Shown here one piece after another: positions 2,813-8,643 of a stretch of 12,307 nt of DNA. The first letter of the stretch is position 1, and each line of letters opens with the position of its first letter. The translations under genes were made by a program, and so were the position numbers. The DNA is taken from NCBI GenBank assembly GCA_030271595.1, contig JARXKO010000017.1:2458-14764 (forward strand), in the 5' to 3' direction. The notes below the pieces were generated by a model that was not told the DNA's origin, made no database searches, and saw only the letters and a list, made by a program, of their open reading frames with translations. This stretch comes from Pseudomonadota bacterium (GTDB lineage Bacteria > Pseudomonadota > Alphaproteobacteria > Sphingomonadales > Sphingomonadaceae).

Positions 2813-2841
2813 TTGACTTTTGTTAAACTTGGGCTCAAAAT
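2813..2841 (+). promoter_or_regulatory. putative sigma-70 promoter of the repeat-protein operon
   Basis: TTGACT (2813-2818) and CAAAAT (2836-2841) are separated by exactly 17 bases. They match the -35 consensus at 5/6 and the -10 consensus at 4/6. The element lies in the most AT-rich part of the window and would start transcription near 2848, giving a leader of about 24 bases before the ATG at 2872. The rest of the intergenic region (2647-2812) shows no other convincing promoter. Confidence 0.5.
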
Positions 2842-2871: not shown

Positions 2872-4392
2872 ATGGCTACGGCTGTTTCAAACAAACGAAA
2901 AATGTACATGACGACCGCGGGCGTGCTCGCGGTCGGGGTCGCCGCTTACGGTCTGGGCAGGGTCTACCCGCCGATGGGGCCAAGCGCCGGCACGATCGGA
3001 CCCGCCGAGCGCTATGTCTCGAGCCAGGTCGGCGAAGGTGATGTCACCCTTGGCGACACCGCTGTTCCCGAGCTGATGCAGACCGATGCGTTCGAGCTGA
3101 TGACCAAGGACCCGAGTTTCAGGGCACTTGCCGCAAGCCCGGGCTTCCAGGCCCTGGCCGGACAGCCGCAGGTCATGGCGGCGCTGATGGCCAATCCCAA
3201 GGCTTTCGCAGCGCTCGCGGCCAATCCGTCGGCATTCGCCGGCCTCGCCAGTTCGGCCCACAACCTCGCGGCGCTCGCGCCCGCGGCGCGGCAAAACAGT
3301 GCCCAGGTAATGTCGGCCGTCGCGAGCCATTCAGCAGCGCTGCAAGCGCTTGCAGGCCATCCACAGGCGCTGGCCGCGATTGCCGCCAATCCGTCGGCCT
3401 TTTCCAGCGCCGCCGCGATCCAGGCATCGGCCGCCAGTTCGGCTGCGCTCGCCGGTCTCGCCAATGACGCTTCGGCGATGAAGGCGCTCAACGCCGACCC
3501 GCAGGCGTTCAGCGCGCTCGCTGCCAACGCCGCCGCGTTCAAGGCACTCTCCGGCCAGCCGCAAGCGCTCGCAGCGGCGGTCAACAGCGCCGCGGCCGCT
3601 GCCCATTACTTCCAGTCGGCAGGCGTGTCGCAACAGGCACTGGCCTCGATCGCGCGCAATGCCAATGCGTTCAGCGCGCTCGCTGGTCAGCCCAAGGCAC
3701 TGCAGGCGATCGCCGCTCACTCCAACGCTTTTGCAGCGCTTGCTTCGCATCCTGCGGCGTTGGCTGCGATTATGAGCAATGCCTCGGCGTTCGGCAGCTT
3801 CGCCAATAACGCCAATGCCTTCCGCGATGCGGCTTCGAAAGCGGCGGCCAATGCCCAGATGGCGCACAATGCCTCGGCGTTCCAGCAACTGGCGAGCGAC
3901 AATGCGGCGATGAAGGCGCTGTCCGCCGACCCGCGGGTATTTTCGGCCATGAATGCCAATGCCGCGGCCTTCGCCGGGCTCGCAAGCAACGCCCGGCTGC
4001 TCAACCCGCAGGCGCTTGCGGCGATCGGCAACAATGCGTCGGCTTTCTCCAGCATGTCGGCCAATGCCGCGCAGCTGAGCGCCGCGGCGCATGCGCTACA
4101 GGCGTTCGACGCCCACTCGCTGGCGGCTTCGGCAGCGGCCGCGGGCCAGCTCAACGCCGCCTCGATGCAGGCGGTGATGGCCAACCCGCAGGCGTTTTCG
4201 GCGATGATGGCCAATCCAAGCGCGTTTGCGGCAATCAGCAGCCGCTCCGCGGCACTGGCGGCGCTGGCTTCGAATGCGAAGGCGTTCGCGGCCTTGGCGG
4301 CACAGCCGAACATGGCGGCATTGATGGCCAATCCGAACTTTGCGTCGGCGCTGAGCCAGTCGGGGATGGCATCGGGGTCACACGCAGACTGA
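2872..4392 (+). CDS. membrane-anchored or exported alanine-rich decapeptide-repeat protein
   Basis: 506 residues; I do not recognise a family. A basic start (NKRK, residues 7-10) precedes a hydrophobic stretch at about residues 12-29, which acts as a signal anchor or an uncleaved signal peptide. A non-repetitive spacer follows to about residue 71. From residue 72 to about 494 the chain is roughly 35 degenerate copies of a ten-residue unit, approximately A-[F/L]-x-A-[L/I/M]-A-x-[N/H/Q]-[P/A]-x, for example AFAALAANPS, AFKALSGQPQ and AFSAMMANPS. By my count 171 residues (34%) are alanine; there is no Cys or Trp, and few charged residues in the repeats. The pattern suggests short amphipathic helices broken at N-P turns, stacked as a solenoid or fibre. 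It is the first gene of an operon with an outer-membrane-type metalloprotease 26 bp downstream and a PrsW protease after that. It could be structural, an adhesin or matrix protein, or a protease substrate; the function is unknown. The sequence is not simple low-complexity slippage: the repeats vary at the DNA level while the reading frame is kept. Confidence 0.85.
   Translation: MATAVSNKRKMYMTTAGVLAVGVAAYGLGRVYPPMGPSAGTIGPAERYVSSQVGEGDVTLGDTAVPELMQTDAFELMTKDPSFRALAASPGFQALAGQPQVMAALMANPKAFAALAANPSAFAGLASSAHNLAALAPAARQNSAQVMSAVASHSAALQALAGHPQALAAIAANPSAFSSAAAIQASAASSAALAGLANDASAMKALNADPQAFSALAANAAAFKALSGQPQALAAAVNSAAAAAHYFQSAGVSQQALASIARNANAFSALAGQPKALQAIAAHSNAFAALASHPAALAAIMSNASAFGSFANNANAFRDAASKAAANAQMAHNASAFQQLASDNAAMKALSADPRVFSAMNANAAAFAGLASNARLLNPQALAAIGNNASAFSSMSANAAQLSAAAHALQAFDAHSLAASAAAAGQLNAASMQAVMANPQAFSAMMANPSAFAAISSRSAALAALASNAKAFAALAAQPNMAALMANPNFASALSQSGMASGSHAD
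3085..4353 (+). repeat. coding tandem array of about 35 diverged 30-bp units
   Basis: Each unit encodes about ten residues, with Phe or Leu at position 2 and Asn-Pro, His-Pro, Gln-Pro or Asn-Ala at positions 8-9. The register is regular over long stretches (for example residues 92-132). It is interrupted by insertions of about five to fourteen residues, near residues 137-150, 176-190, 236-250, 325-338, 372-378 and 401-430. Individual units have diverged in nucleotide sequence, pointing to an old expansion held by selection at the protein level. Confidence 0.8.
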
Positions 4393-4403
4393 GCGTTTAA
4401 TCC

Positions 4404-4409
4404 GGGGGG
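4404..4409 (+). promoter_or_regulatory. G-run Shine-Dalgarno of the metallopeptidase gene
   Basis: GGGGGG nine bases before the ATG at 4419, inside the 26-bp gap after the repeat-protein stop. There is no room for a separate promoter, which supports co-transcription. Confidence 0.6.
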
Positions 4410-4418
4410 CAGTTGTAA

Positions 4419-7400
4419 ATGCGTTTGGAGTCTGGCGGGCGCGAGTTCGTCCATGTGATGCTCGCGCTCGTCCTGGCCACCTGCGCCGGGCCTGCGCTCG
4501 CCCAGGCTCAGTCGGGTCAGCCCGAACCGCCGCCCCCGCCTCCTGCTGATACCACCACCCAGGTCGAACATCCCGATGCGGTGCCGCCGCCCCCGGCCGA
4601 CACCCCGCCGGCCGAACCGGTTGTCGCTGCGCCGACCCAGCCCAATGCGCCCGAGCCGACGACGGCGGAACAGAAGACCCCCGATCATGTCCCCGCCGAC
4701 GCCTCCGGCTTCCATCTTTCGACGCTCGAGACAAAACACCTCACCTTGCTCTACATCGATCCGGCGCAGACCTATCTGACGCCGTATCTCGGCCGGGCAT
4801 TCGAGAACGCGCTGGCCTTCCACATGAAGGAATTCCACTGGCAGCCGTGGGAAGCGACGACGGTCCTGCTCAAGGACTTCGGCGATTACGGCAATGCCGC
4901 GGCGCTGGCCTCGCCAAGCAACATGGTGCTGCTCGATGTCGCGCCCTTGTCGCTGTCGATGGAGACCTTTTCCCCGGGCGAGCGCTTCTTCACCTTGACC
5001 AACCACGAGCTCGCCCATGTCGCTGCGATCGACGTGTGGGACAAACGCGACGCGTTCTGGCGCCATATTCTCGGCGGCAAGCCGGTGCCGCTTCAAAAGC
5101 ACCCTGAATCGATCCTCTACAATTTCCTCACCTCGCCCCGGAACCTCAGCCCGCGCTGGTACATGGAAGGCAGCGCGGTGTTCTTCGAAACCTGGATGGC
5201 TGGCGGCCTTGGCCGGGCTCAGGGCGGCTATGACGAAATGGTGTGGCGGGCGAAGGTCCGCGACAATGCGCGCATCTTCTCGCCGCTCGGCCTCGAAAGC
5301 GAAGGCACGTCGATCGATTTCCAGGTCGGCGCCAATTCGTACCTCTACGGCACCCGCTTCTTCTCTTATCTGGCGTTGACCTACGGACCCGAACGGACCG
5401 TCGAGTGGCTTCGCCGGTCGGAGGATTCGAAGGCCTTCTACGCCAGTCAATTCAAGCATGTGTTCGGCATGCCGCTGGATTCGGCGTGGAACGACTGGAT
5501 CGCGTTCGAGCGCAAGTTCCAGAAGGACAATCTGGCCGCGATCGCGCGCTATCCTCTTACGGACGTCCAGCATTTGTCGCCGCGCGGACTGGGCTCGATG
5601 TCACGCGGCTATGTCGATGACAAAACCAACAGCCTGGTTGCCGCTTTCCGCTATCCCGGCCGGATCGGTTTCCTCGGCAAGATGGACCTTGGCAGCGGCA
5701 AGGTCACCCCCCTGACCGACCTCGACGGCATGATGCTCTACAAGGTCACCAGCCTGGCGTTCGACCCGGCCACCCGGACCGCCTTCTATACCAATCAGAA
5801 TTACGCCTATCGCGACCTCAACGCGATCAACGTCGATACCGGCAAGAAGCAGCGTTTGCTGACCGACGCCCGGATCGGCGACCTCGCCTTCAACCACGCC
5901 GACAACAGCCTGTGGGGCATTCGCCATCAAAACGGGTTTGTCACTTTGGTGCGAATCCCCGCGCCCTATACGGAATTCAACCAGATCAAGACCTTTCGCT
6001 ATGGCGAGATCATCTTCGACCTCGACATCTCGCCCGACGGCAATCTCGTCGCCGCATCCTATGGCACCGTCGATGGCAAGCAATCGGTCAAGGTATGGAA
6101 GCGCGAGGACCTCGAGCAGGGCAATGCCGAGGAGCCGATCGCGACCTTGTCGTTGCCGCCCTCGGTGCCGGAGAATTTCACCTTCACCCCCGACGGCAAG
6201 GCGCTGCTCGGCAACAGCTATTACACCGGCGTCTCGAACGTTTTCCGCTTCGATATCGCAAGCGGCAAATATGACGTCCTGACCAATGCCGCGACCGGCT
6301 TCTTCCGGCCGCAATTGCGGCCCGACGGTTCGCTTCTGGTCTATGATTATACCGGCGAGGGCTTCAACCCGTCGCTCATCAAGCCCGAAGTGCGCCAGGA
6401 TCTGGCCAACGTCCGGTTCCTCGGCAATGAAGTGGTCAAGGCCCGCCCCGAGCTCAAGGCCTGGGGCATTGGCTCCCCGGCCAAAGTGCCGCTCGATCAG
6501 CTCGTCACCGCTCGGAGCACCTATGAGCCGCTCGAGCGGATGCGCTTCGATGCCCATTATCCGATCGTCTCGGGATATGCCCGGTCGCCCGCCCCGGGCT
6601 ATTATTTCCACATCGCCGACCCGCTCCAGTTCCGCCAGTTCAGCGCCACCGTCTCGGTCTCGCCCTTCGGCCATTTGAAGACGAGCGAGCGCTTCCACCT
6701 CAATGTCGAATATCAGACCCCGAACTGGAAGCTCAATTACTGGCATAACCTGGCCGACGTTTACGACCTGGCTGGTCCCGTGCTGCGCAGCCGCAAGGGC
6801 GATGCTTTCATCATCAGCTATAACAAGCCCGTAATCTACGATCCGCCGCGGCAGCTCGAACTGTTCGGTTCGGCAGCGGCCTATTTCGGGCTCAACCAGC
6901 TGCCCGGCGCCCAGAACATCCTCAGCCCCAAGCAACTGACCTCGGGCGAAATCGGGCTGCGCTATACCAATACCACCAAGGCGCTGGGCGGGGTCGATCA
7001 CGAAAAAGGCGTGGCTGGCCGGCTCGTCTTCGGCACCGACGAGGCGCAGGGCAAATTCTACCCCAAGCTTTATGGCGGCTTCGACATTGGAACGGCGCTT
7101 CCGTGGAGCAATAGCTCGGCCTGGCTATATGGCCATGCGGGCACCGTCGGGGGACCTCGGCTAAGCCCGCTCGCAGCTTATTATTTCGGATCATTTCGAA
7201 ACAATTACGTCGATGACCGGAGTGAGAAGCGCTACCGCGAAATGGAGAGCTTGCCGGGCTTCGGGATCGACGAGATTGCGGCGCGGCGCTTCGCCAAATT
7301 GACCGGGGAGATCAACCTGCCACCGGTCCGTTTCGCCGAGCTCGGGACCGCCGCTTTCTACATGAATTATATCCGCCCGGCGGTGTTCGCCGGGGCCATG

Positions 7401-7577
7401 GTGACCCAGGCACCGGACGGGTCAAATCACCGCTACGAAGATGTCGGAGCCCAGCTCGACCTCAATTTTACCGTCGCGCTGCGCCTGCCGATGATCTTTT
7501 CGGTGGGGCTGGCGAGCGGTTGGCAGGATGGCCATTACAGCAAGACCGAATGGCTCGCTTCGCTGAAGATCCTGTGA
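4419..7577 (+). CDS. exported metallopeptidase / beta-propeller / outer-membrane barrel fusion
   Basis: 1052 residues. A Sec signal peptide (hydrophobic FVHVMLALVLA at 10-20, likely cut after PALA or AQA near 28-30) is followed by a proline-rich linker (about 34-92). The peptidase region (about 98-370) has the gluzincin signature NHELAHV with His196, Glu197 and His200, and RWYMEGSAVFFE with Glu250 as the probable third zinc ligand. This is the arrangement of peptidase-MA-like proteins. Residues about 380-660 carry TolB/PD40-like propeller blades (DLDISPDGNLVAASYG, FTFTPDGKALLGNSYY, QLRPDGSLLVYDY). The last ~350 residues alternate polar and aromatic or hydrophobic strands with Gly and Tyr (GEIGLRYTNTT, KLYGGFDIG, WLYGHAGTVGG) and look like an outer-membrane beta-barrel related to surface-antigen/Omp85-type barrels. 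The chain ends in Leu rather than the common aromatic. The likely picture is a barrel in the outer membrane with the propeller and protease in the periplasm. It is the second gene of the operon and may process or export the repeat protein, which is inference. Confidence 0.88.
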   Translation: MRLESGGREFVHVMLALVLATCAGPALAQAQSGQPEPPPPPPADTTTQVEHPDAVPPPPADTPPAEPVVAAPTQPNAPEPTTAEQKTPDHVPADASGFHLSTLETKHLTLLYIDPAQTYLTPYLGRAFENALAFHMKEFHWQPWEATTVLLKDFGDYGNAAALASPSNMVLLDVAPLSLSMETFSPGERFFTLTNHELAHVAAIDVWDKRDAFWRHILGGKPVPLQKHPESILYNFLTSPRNLSPRWYMEGSAVFFETWMAGGLGRAQGGYDEMVWRAKVRDNARIFSPLGLESEGTSIDFQVGANSYLYGTRFFSYLALTYGPERTVEWLRRSEDSKAFYASQFKHVFGMPLDSAWNDWIAFERKFQKDNLAAIARYPLTDVQHLSPRGLGSMSRGYVDDKTNSLVAAFRYPGRIGFLGKMDLGSGKVTPLTDLDGMMLYKVTSLAFDPATRTAFYTNQNYAYRDLNAINVDTGKKQRLLTDARIGDLAFNHADNSLWGIRHQNGFVTLVRIPAPYTEFNQIKTFRYGEIIFDLDISPDGNLVAASYGTVDGKQSVKVWKREDLEQGNAEEPIATLSLPPSVPENFTFTPDGKALLGNSYYTGVSNVFRFDIASGKYDVLTNAATGFFRPQLRPDGSLLVYDYTGEGFNPSLIKPEVRQDLANVRFLGNEVVKARPELKAWGIGSPAKVPLDQLVTARSTYEPLERMRFDAHYPIVSGYARSPAPGYYFHIADPLQFRQFSATVSVSPFGHLKTSERFHLNVEYQTPNWKLNYWHNLADVYDLAGPVLRSRKGDAFIISYNKPVIYDPPRQLELFGSAAAYFGLNQLPGAQNILSPKQLTSGEIGLRYTNTTKALGGVDHEKGVAGRLVFGTDEAQGKFYPKLYGGFDIGTALPWSNSSAWLYGHAGTVGGPRLSPLAAYYFGSFRNNYVDDRSEKRYREMESLPGFGIDEIAARRFAKLTGEINLPPVRFAELGTAAFYMNYIRPAVFAGAMVTQAPDGSNHRYEDVGAQLDLNFTVALRLPMIFSVGLASGWQDGHYSKTEWLASLKIL

Positions 7578-7580
7578 AAC

Positions 7581-7587
7581 GGGGGGA
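7581..7587 (+). promoter_or_regulatory. G-run Shine-Dalgarno of the PrsW gene
   Basis: GGGGGGA six bases before the ATG at 7594, within the 16-bp gap after the metallopeptidase stop. It selects this ATG and supports operon translation. Confidence 0.6.
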
Positions 7588-7593
7588 CGCGCA

Positions 7594-8643
7594 ATGACCG
7601 CCGAATTCATCCATTGGGGTCTGGCACTGGTTCCGGTTCTCGTGTTGCTCGCCTTGTTCACCTGGCTCGACGCGTACAAGCTGATGAACTTCAAGGAGAT
7701 TTCAGTCCTGCTCATGCTTGGCGGGGTGGCCGCGGTCGTGTGCTACCCGATCAGCGGGCGCATGATCGATACCCTGCCGATCGGCTTCAATTTCTACAGC
7801 CGTTTCGTTGCGCCGTGGATCGAGGAGGGGGTCAAGGGGCTGGTCGTGGTCGCGCTCTTCCGCGCCAACCGCATCGGCTACAAGCTCGACGCGGTGATTT
7901 CCGGTTTCGCCATCGGCGCCGGCTTCTCGGTCATCGAGAACATCATCTATCTGATGCGCTTTCCCGACTACGGTGCGGGCACGTGGCTGGTCCGCGGGCT
8001 CGGCACCGCGGTGATGCACGGCACCACGCTCGCCTTGCTTGCCGCAAGCGCTCACGAATTCGCCGAGCGCGAGAACCGCGAGGCCGCGGGCGAGTTCAAT
8101 TTCCGCTTGTGGTGGTTTGTCCCGGGTTACCTCGGTGCGGTCGCAATCCACATGCTGTTCAATCAGTTTCCAGACCGGCCGATGCTGGCAATGATGGGCG
8201 CGGTGCTGGTCGCTCCGGTGGTGATGATCGGGATCCTCAATTTCGGGACCTCCGAGGCCCAGGCGTGGCTGGCGACCGAATATGAGGCGCATAAAGCGGC
8301 GCTTGCGGCGCTTGACAAGGGCCGGTGGCCGGAGGGGGCGGCAAGCCCGAGGATCGCCGCGCTGGGCAAGCGAATGGGGCCTGAAGCGGCCGAGCGGATC
8401 CGCGCTTACTGGCGAACCCAGGCCTATCTCGTGGTCGAGGCCGAGGAAACGCTGATCGAGGAGGCCGGCGGCGATGCGGTGTTCGACCGTGCCAAGGTCG
8501 CCGCGGCCTTTGCCGAGCTCAACCGCCTTCGCGGTGAGATGGGCAAATCGGCCTTCGCCGCGCTGAAACCGCTGCTGCCGTTCAGCCGCAACGATTATTG
8601 GGAAGTGTCCGAACTGCGCCAGCGCCTCCAGAAAGAGCGCTGA
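7594..8643 (+). CDS. PrsW-family intramembrane metalloprotease with soluble C-terminal extension
   Basis: 349 residues. The first ~217 are hydrophobic with about seven membrane segments (roughly 7-26, 37-51, 73-90, 99-121, 134-153, 173-191 and 199-217). The family's motifs are all present: APWIEEGVKG (Glu77, Glu78, Lys81), GFAIGAGFSVIEN (Glu115, Asn116), GTAVMHG (His142) and AIHMLFN (His186, Asn190). PrsW belongs to the CPBP/Abi-like glutamic intramembrane protease superfamily. The founding Bacillus member clips the anti-sigma factor RsiW, but nothing here shows an anti-sigma substrate. Residues ~218-349 are a helical, charged, non-membrane extension that I do not recognise; it may regulate the protease or bind a substrate. 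It is the third gene of the operon, 16 bp after the metallopeptidase gene. A natural candidate substrate is the anchored repeat protein encoded first in the operon (inference). Confidence 0.9.
   Translation: MTAEFIHWGLALVPVLVLLALFTWLDAYKLMNFKEISVLLMLGGVAAVVCYPISGRMIDTLPIGFNFYSRFVAPWIEEGVKGLVVVALFRANRIGYKLDAVISGFAIGAGFSVIENIIYLMRFPDYGAGTWLVRGLGTAVMHGTTLALLAASAHEFAERENREAAGEFNFRLWWFVPGYLGAVAIHMLFNQFPDRPMLAMMGAVLVAPVVMIGILNFGTSEAQAWLATEYEAHKAALAALDKGRWPEGAASPRIAALGKRMGPEAAERIRAYWRTQAYLVVEAEETLIEEAGGDAVFDRAKVAAAFAELNRLRGEMGKSAFAALKPLLPFSRNDYWEVSELRQRLQKER

Follow-up and report, generated by a model that had tools for sequence, protein, structure and literature searches.

Genes for a repeat protein, a metallopeptidase-propeller-barrel protein and a PrsW-family protease form a recurrent cassette: a candidate protease-substrate module of the bacterial envelope

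What common task could be served by an anchored repeat protein, a metallopeptidase with a barrel-like domain and an intramembrane protease that are encoded side by side? The question is raised by a stretch of 12,307 nucleotides from a member of the Sphingomonadaceae (assembly GCA_030271595.1, contig JARXKO010000017.1, positions 2,458 to 14,764), here called the window, which comes from a single contig of a genome with 67% completeness. We use the cassette labels REP for the repeat protein and PEP for the metallopeptidase-propeller-barrel protein; the third protein is a member of the PrsW family. The answer to which we give slightly better than even chances is regulated intramembrane proteolysis, with the cassette as a dedicated protease-substrate module related to RsiW/PrsW. 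PrsW would have REP as a substrate, as well as an anti-sigma factor where one is present, and PEP would act on the repeat arm of REP. The evidence comprises gene order, co-occurrence, catalytic residues, a common sequence motif and the linkage of relatives to sigma factor genes. The three genes are as follows.

2872..4392, + strand: REP, single-pass anchored repeat protein of 506 amino acids with 10-residue Ala-rich repeats (open reading frame)
4419..7577, + strand: PEP, metallopeptidase with beta-propeller and C-terminal barrel-like domain, 1052 amino acids (open reading frame)
7594..8643, + strand: PrsW-family intramembrane protease, 349 amino acids (PF13367 match)

All three open reading frames lie on the + strand, separated by 26 bp (REP-PEP) and 16 bp (PEP-PrsW), and G-rich runs are present in front of all three start codons. 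These reading frames, their coordinates and the two gaps agree exactly with those given in an earlier, sequence-only reading of the window, which had proposed a dedicated maturation, release or sensing system and had named recurrent adjacency in other genomes as its own test.

Adjacency was examined in 71 genomes of the window's genus, in each of which REP, PEP and PrsW were sought. The cassette is an all-or-none feature in this genus set: all three genes occur in 29/71 genomes and none in 39/71, the remaining three cases (G229, G238, G239) being at contig ends. The counts per gene are 31 genomes for PrsW, 30 for REP and 31 for PEP, the last number being 34 listed genomes minus three with only weak matches (G197, G200, G242). 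Among the genus genomes that are at least 90% complete, each gene is present in 22/53 (for PEP, 24 listed minus 2 weak). The genus loci that carry the complete trio on a single contig agree in order and strand without exception (27/27). PEP and PrsW are never more than 27 bp apart in these loci, with negative gaps arising partly from the choice of the longest reading frame, and the REP-PEP gap is at most 150 bp in 26. The exception is a gap of 843 bp in L042, which has the closest PEP of the genus set (88%). In L042/L072, the 843-bp insert between REP and PEP carries an open reading frame of 269 amino acids, and the C-terminus of REP is altered.

A wider set was obtained by searching 84,980 species genomes with a PEP alignment, which gave 233 relatives; the best 80 loci of these 233 were used. 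Sixteen of them, from within the window's genus, overlap with the genus set; the other 64 lie outside the genus. The loci carry alpha-, beta- and gammaproteobacterial and Acidobacteria labels and are mostly metagenome-assembled. Culturable relatives with the trio include Sphingomonas edaphi DAC4 and S. alba SE158. For REP to be scored as present, either the anchor motif or a profile match of any kind sufficed, a rule under which very short pieces count only weakly (65 amino acids in L140). Both neighbours of PEP are directly in place in 63 of the 80 loci, 49 of these being among the 64 non-genus loci, and the test named in the earlier note thus came out in its favour. REP is directly upstream of PEP in 68/80 loci; nine others are truncated by the start of the contig, and three are special cases, namely L072 with its 843-bp insert and L119 and L131, where the PEP frame is broken and REP lies further upstream. 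PrsW follows PEP directly in 74/80 loci, with two more cut at the contig end.

That the genes are chance neighbours without common function has next to no probability, and we reject it on the strength of co-occurrence, fixed order and recurrence in distant genomes. The order is kept although flanking genes differ: flanking reading frames split the 27 genus loci into 11 groups, the largest of which (14 loci) includes the window, a crude count that is inflated by short contigs. What speaks for chance is confined to 3/80 loci without an adjoining PrsW and one (L148) with PrsW 2.6 kb from PEP.

Searches in other samples returned few copies. An order sample of 196 genomes contained full-length PEP in 10, all from the window's genus, the other matches being short. 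The REP anchor was found in 1/398 genomes of an even phylum sample, the window's own, and the 117 candidates of a protein search that had the anchor region as query included 1 match; two such single matches mean no more than that the family is scarce there or difficult to reach. The PEP of Sphingomicrobium nitratireducens (L109, the same locus as G170) groups in the PEP tree with Marinicaulis, apart from other Sphingomicrobium/Sphingomonas copies, a placement that suggests horizontal transfer.

Assignment of the third protein to the PrsW family rests on its match to PF13367 (E 8.6e-20, 71.5 bits versus a cut-off of 23.5), and it is the sole PF13367 match in the 67%-complete window genome. Residues E77, E78, E115, H142, H186 and N190 are invariant in 62/62 aligned rows and N116 in 61/62; we take these to be the Glu-Glu, Glu-Asn and His motifs of the family. 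Scored with NF033739, the model for Bacillus-type PrsW, the window protein reaches 27.2 bits compared with an equivalog cut-off of 225, which places it outside that type. The polypeptide continues beyond the Pfam domain:

8227..8640, + strand: C-terminal extension of PrsW past the Pfam domain (genus copies aligned)

The extension ends with LLPFSRND-WE-SEL in most genus copies and is only partly kept in distant relatives.

The second protease candidate, PEP, matches no Pfam or NCBIfam family above cut-off. Its regions were delimited as follows.

5004..5018, + strand: HELAH zinc-binding motif of PEP, residues 196-200 (invariant in 37/37 rows)
5166-5168, + strand: E250, candidate third ligand (invariant in 37/37 rows)
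5961..6392, + strand: TolB-like propeller stretch, residues 515-658 (match to PDB 4r40)
6516..7574, + strand: C-terminal region, possibly an Omp85-type barrel, limits approximate (Omp85_2 in relatives)

H196, E197, H200 and E250 are all invariant in 37/37 diverse relatives. With an HExxH motif and a downstream Glu, PEP has the pattern of a gluzincin-type metallopeptidase, in which E250 would serve as a ligand; we presume that gluzincin is the appropriate family name. The propeller match to 4r40 has an E-value of 1.1e-6 and is weaker with a profile (E 0.0034). Omp85_2 was matched by 6/37 PEP relatives, with a best E-value of 2.9e-5, and not by the window PEP itself. By eye, the N-terminus of PEP looks like a signal peptide. 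PEP is probably anchored in the outer membrane.

The presumed substrate, REP, begins with a short N-terminal tail and a single hydrophobic helix, which are followed by a juxtamembrane module and Ala-rich repeats.

2902..2958, + strand: predicted transmembrane anchor of REP, about residues 11-29 (hydropathy of homologous REPs and 27-row alignment)
2968..3096, + strand: juxtamembrane module, P33 to about residue 75 (invariant alignment columns)
2989-2994, + strand: GT of the juxtamembrane module, G40 T41 (invariant columns)
3097..4389, + strand: tandem 10-residue repeat domain (autocorrelation)

In the 27-row REP alignment the juxtamembrane module shows conserved G40, T41, Q52, D57, an LGD sequence, Q70 and D72 (MQTD), and G40, T41 and Q70 are also invariant in a second, 18-row alignment. 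Alanine accounts for 171 of the 506 residues of the window REP. Its repeat period of 10 is visible as an autocorrelation of 0.29 at lag 10, as compared to a mean maximum of 0.22 in shuffled sequences. The best lag is 10 or a multiple in 28/29 genus REPs (the exception is L060) and 9 or a multiple in all 18 sigma-linked REPs that were measured. The repeat arm is about 240-530 residues long in most REPs with a complete N-terminus. The anchor is fixed and the repeat sequence varies strongly among REPs; the repeat domain seems freely replaceable. Aberrant units (eg, EGLAAQGRAA, EALGH) occur in the REPs of L098, L100, L108 and L116; they follow the usual conserved anchor or, in copies whose anchor is truncated, are encoded at the usual position in the operon.

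Neither Pfam nor NCBIfam gave a match above cut-off for REP, and no adhesin or surface family was recognised. Matches of the repeats to STI1/DP-like (E 7.6e-5) and XPC-binding domains are below cut-off and possibly compositional. A fixed N-terminal part followed by variable tandem short units of constant period would also be expected of a peptide precursor, in which a leader is followed by 9- or 10-residue units that are cut into short signalling peptides. No recurrent neighbouring peptide exporter or receptor was noticed, in a survey that included no systematic search for them, and the units resemble short capped helices, as the sub-threshold STI1/DP match illustrates, so that a structural solenoid would be equally suited. 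We regard a peptide precursor as very improbable.

REP-like N-terminal anchors were also observed on L,D-transpeptidases (YkuD; PF03734 in the one tested) in L062-L066 (G219, G224, G211, G236 and G231, respectively), and the membrane helix is followed there by G[TSA][IVM]-x-P. Matches to L,D-transpeptidases that reach the anchor (query start at or before residue 29, read from the rows) occur in at least 10 genomes, three of which lack the cassette (G216, G225, G237). The common anchor is a weak lead to L,D-transpeptidases as a second substrate class.

A pointer to a regulatory role comes from relatives of the cassette. A gene for an extracytoplasmic function (ECF) sigma factor is present in 21/80 loci, and the same 21 were obtained with a second query, the sigma protein of L138. 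An anti-sigma domain was detected in 20 of these 21 loci by a first model and in 21/21 by the anti-sigma profile. The first sigma query was that of L141 and the first anti-sigma model had L115, L141 and three metagenome proteins as its input, so these rows match by construction. Sixteen loci have the order sigma, anti-sigma, REP, PEP, and PrsW comes last in 14 of them (L110 and L114 have none). L148 is rearranged, with the sigma gene beside the distant PrsW. In L115, L133, L139 and L141 the anti-sigma domain is in frame with REP, and such fusions also occur in the metagenome proteins P0016, P0020 and P0026. The second anti-sigma profile (A5), made from separate anti-sigmas with the fusions left out, matches the four fused loci with E-values of 4e-12 to 3.8e-21. 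A strong ribosome-binding sequence (aggaagga) stands before an internal ATG just ahead of the membrane helix in L115, L139 and L141, and both fused and free REP may be produced from one gene in these loci.

Two sigma proteins that were tested match the Pfam models of sigma-70 region 2 and region 4, both above cut-off. Among the separate anti-sigmas, 16/17 match NCBIfam anti-sigma models below cut-off, with E-values up to 0.05; the best E-value of the set, 1.4e-14, belongs to the first anti-sigma, which reaches 54.7 bits with NF052375 and stays under the equivalog cut-off of 100 bits. The zf-HC2 domain matches 8/17, and in a genome-wide zf-HC2 search the anti-sigmas of L107 and L110 were above cut-off and three just below. 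Five of seven fused proteins match NCBIfam anti-sigma models; those of L141 and L133 do not, yet both match profile A5.

All 20 sigma-linked loci that are in the PEP tree lie on one side of its midpoint root, and the sigma label changes 9 times as compared to 17.9 in shuffles, with 0/500 shuffles as low. Of the 59 loci without a sigma gene, 27 extend for 4.3 kb or more before PEP, and these all carry alphaproteobacterial labels; in the other 32 the stretch before PEP is shorter than 4.3 kb, and absence is not judgeable there.

The anti-sigmas and REP have a juxtamembrane motif in common. The only invariant columns of 17 cassette anti-sigmas are one Pro and a Gly-Thr just outside the membrane helix. 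GT[IMVL] after the predicted helix is present in 20/20 cassette anti-sigmas or fusions and in 55/56 REPs, the exception being L149 with GAI. The REP count omits 12 rows with no helix above threshold (contig-start cuts, and L070 just under it) as well as REPs with a profile E-value above 1e-3, such as L144; L115, L139 and L141 are counted in both sets, and L133 among the REPs only. Twenty-six further anti-sigma-like proteins served as controls, of which 10 belong to the window's genus and 16 to genomes with sigma-linked cassettes, and the motif was found in none (0/26); 22 of these controls have a usable stretch, and L160, L164, L165 and L180 lack a usable helix or have too little sequence after it.

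We infer cleavage, the order of the cuts, the compartments and the signal from this arrangement. REP would be held in the inner membrane by its single helix, with the arm of 9- or 10-residue repeats extending into the periplasm. PEP, whose protease and propeller parts would lie in the periplasm and whose anchor is probably in the outer membrane, would recognise or trim this arm, after which PrsW would cut at or near the conserved juxtamembrane segment that contains GT[IMVL]. In sigma-linked relatives, the same PrsW would cut the GT-bearing anti-sigma, by which the ECF sigma factor would be freed. One PrsW with two substrates is the simplest reading because the protease is encoded with two single-pass proteins that have a juxtamembrane motif in common, and the in-frame loci show that the repeat arm stands in place of the sensory domain of an anti-sigma. 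For the window's lineage, the possible output would be release or turnover of REP itself, or a signal via an unlinked partner.

This scheme can be extended to signalling from the outer membrane inward, in which PEP reads or cuts the periplasm-spanning arm of REP, PrsW sorts REP and anti-sigma by GT[IMVL], REP acts as a consumable timer or decoy for the anti-sigma, and alphaproteobacterial cassettes such as that of the window's genus represent the protease-substrate core, the sigma arm having been lost or not yet gained. We consider the extended scheme rather unlikely.

A role of REP as a passive tether, which bridges the inner membrane to PEP in the outer membrane and is only cleared by PrsW when old, would agree with the long repeat arm and the presumed outer-membrane partner. 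Such a role would leave the linked GT-bearing anti-sigma genes unexplained, and we judge it improbable.

Several findings weigh against the proposed protease-substrate module. PrsW was not found near PEP in 3/80 loci (L110, L114, L147), two of which, L110 and L114, are sigma-linked. The alignment of helix and GT in a profile comparison of anti-sigma and REP anchors has a moderate probability of 57.7%, and the cassette anti-sigmas are mutually related, so that the 20/20 cannot be counted as independent. Instead of PrsW, the GT motif might be there for PEP, for a site-2 protease or for folding. Furthermore, sigma and anti-sigma genes were not found in 33 genus stretches with the cassette or parts of it (the window contig and 32 others), and profile matches to anti-sigmas in the genus are weak, unlinked and found in 11/71 genomes. 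The window has no ECF sigma and anti-sigma pair in the operon, the defining feature of a sigma module controlled by regulated intramembrane proteolysis. The evidence for the signalling part thus comes from relatives and not from the window's lineage. The dedicated sensing or release system that had been proposed from the sequence fits the data well and gains from the linked ECF sigma/anti-sigma genes of relatives.

The same absence, in the genus stretches and in the 27 sufficiently long alphaproteobacterial-labelled loci, would suit maturation or export, with REP as a surface or secreted product that PrsW frees and PEP processes or exports, and no transcription signal in the window's lineage. 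Strongly varying repeats on a fixed anchor and the Omp85-like matches in 6/37 PEP relatives agree with this, and PrsW has been proposed as a release peptidase of polymorphic toxins (PMC3482391). The sigma/anti-sigma genes and the anti-sigma-REP fusions in relatives point to signalling instead, and the Pfam and NCBIfam scans of REP recognised no adhesin or surface family. We hold maturation or export as a doubtful alternative and prefer the protease-substrate module.

The earlier note had pointed to a shared promoter candidate upstream of REP:

2813..2841, + strand: weak promoter-like site 5′ of REP (site count not above shuffles)

The site is present, and with two promoter-like sites in the region versus a mean of 1.3 in shuffles there is no excess over chance, so it provides no evidence for a promoter. 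The upstream neighbour encodes a CHAT-TPR protein (PF12770, E 1.2e-49); the downstream neighbours are genes for a flavin reductase and a hybrid histidine kinase. In nine compared genus stretches the CHAT gene occurs in one (L033) and the two downstream genes in none. At 1-2316 of the window and in the region 12027-16948 of L033, the CHAT-TPR protein is encoded beside a filamentous-haemagglutinin-like gene that was named by eye and lies on the contig upstream of the window. L033 also has a ShlB/FhaC-like gene (by eye), and the two genomes thus have a two-partner-secretion and caspase-like neighbourhood by the cassette. A small secreted-looking open reading frame of 84 amino acids is located at 2392-2646 on the − strand, divergent from REP, and L033 has a weak relative (E 4e-4) next to its CHAT gene. 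A function in anti-phage defence was rejected, as PADLOC gave no match for the CHAT protein, REP, PEP or PrsW.

Among known systems, the closest is SigW-RsiW-PrsW of Bacillus subtilis, where the anti-sigma RsiW is cleaved at site 1 by PrsW.(PMC3498285, PMC10202637) A PrsW-family protease is common to both, and the likeness extends to an ECF sigma factor and a single-pass anti-sigma in the sigma-linked relatives only. The available text of these papers mentions neither a repeat protein nor an outer-membrane metallopeptidase, and the cassette PrsW is encoded with its presumed substrate. The window copy differs further from the Bacillus system in lacking a linked sigma/anti-sigma and in having a PrsW far below the Bacillus-type cut-off. 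In the SigE-RseA-DegS-RseP (RseB) system of Escherichia coli (PMC10202637), two proteases relay envelope stress to a transmembrane anti-sigma, as is likewise proposed here. Those proteases are from other families, a repeat protein or outer-membrane protease is not mentioned in the text available, and the RseA_N domain was matched, weakly, by 1/17 cassette anti-sigmas. PrsW of polymorphic toxins (PMC3482391) resembles the proposed role in being a processing enzyme of an attached protein; as far as that source describes it, PrsW is fused and mainly Gram-positive, whereas the cassette PrsW is a separate gene, and Pfam and NCBIfam scans matched no toxin domain in the cassette. PEP resembles TolB in its propeller part and may resemble proteins of the Omp85 superfamily in its barrel-like part, and differs from both by its extra N-terminal HExxH peptidase.

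No description of the cassette was found in the literature searched, which did not cover the ECF classification, where the sigma group may already stand. To our knowledge, little is known about PrsW substrates outside Firmicutes. The comparison points to regulated intramembrane proteolysis of unusual composition, as a so far undescribed route of envelope sensing or processing: PrsW is encoded alongside its probable substrate and a protease of outer-membrane type, joined in relatives by a GT-bearing sigma/anti-sigma pair, which offers a concrete substrate motif and a candidate route of information from the outer membrane to transcription.

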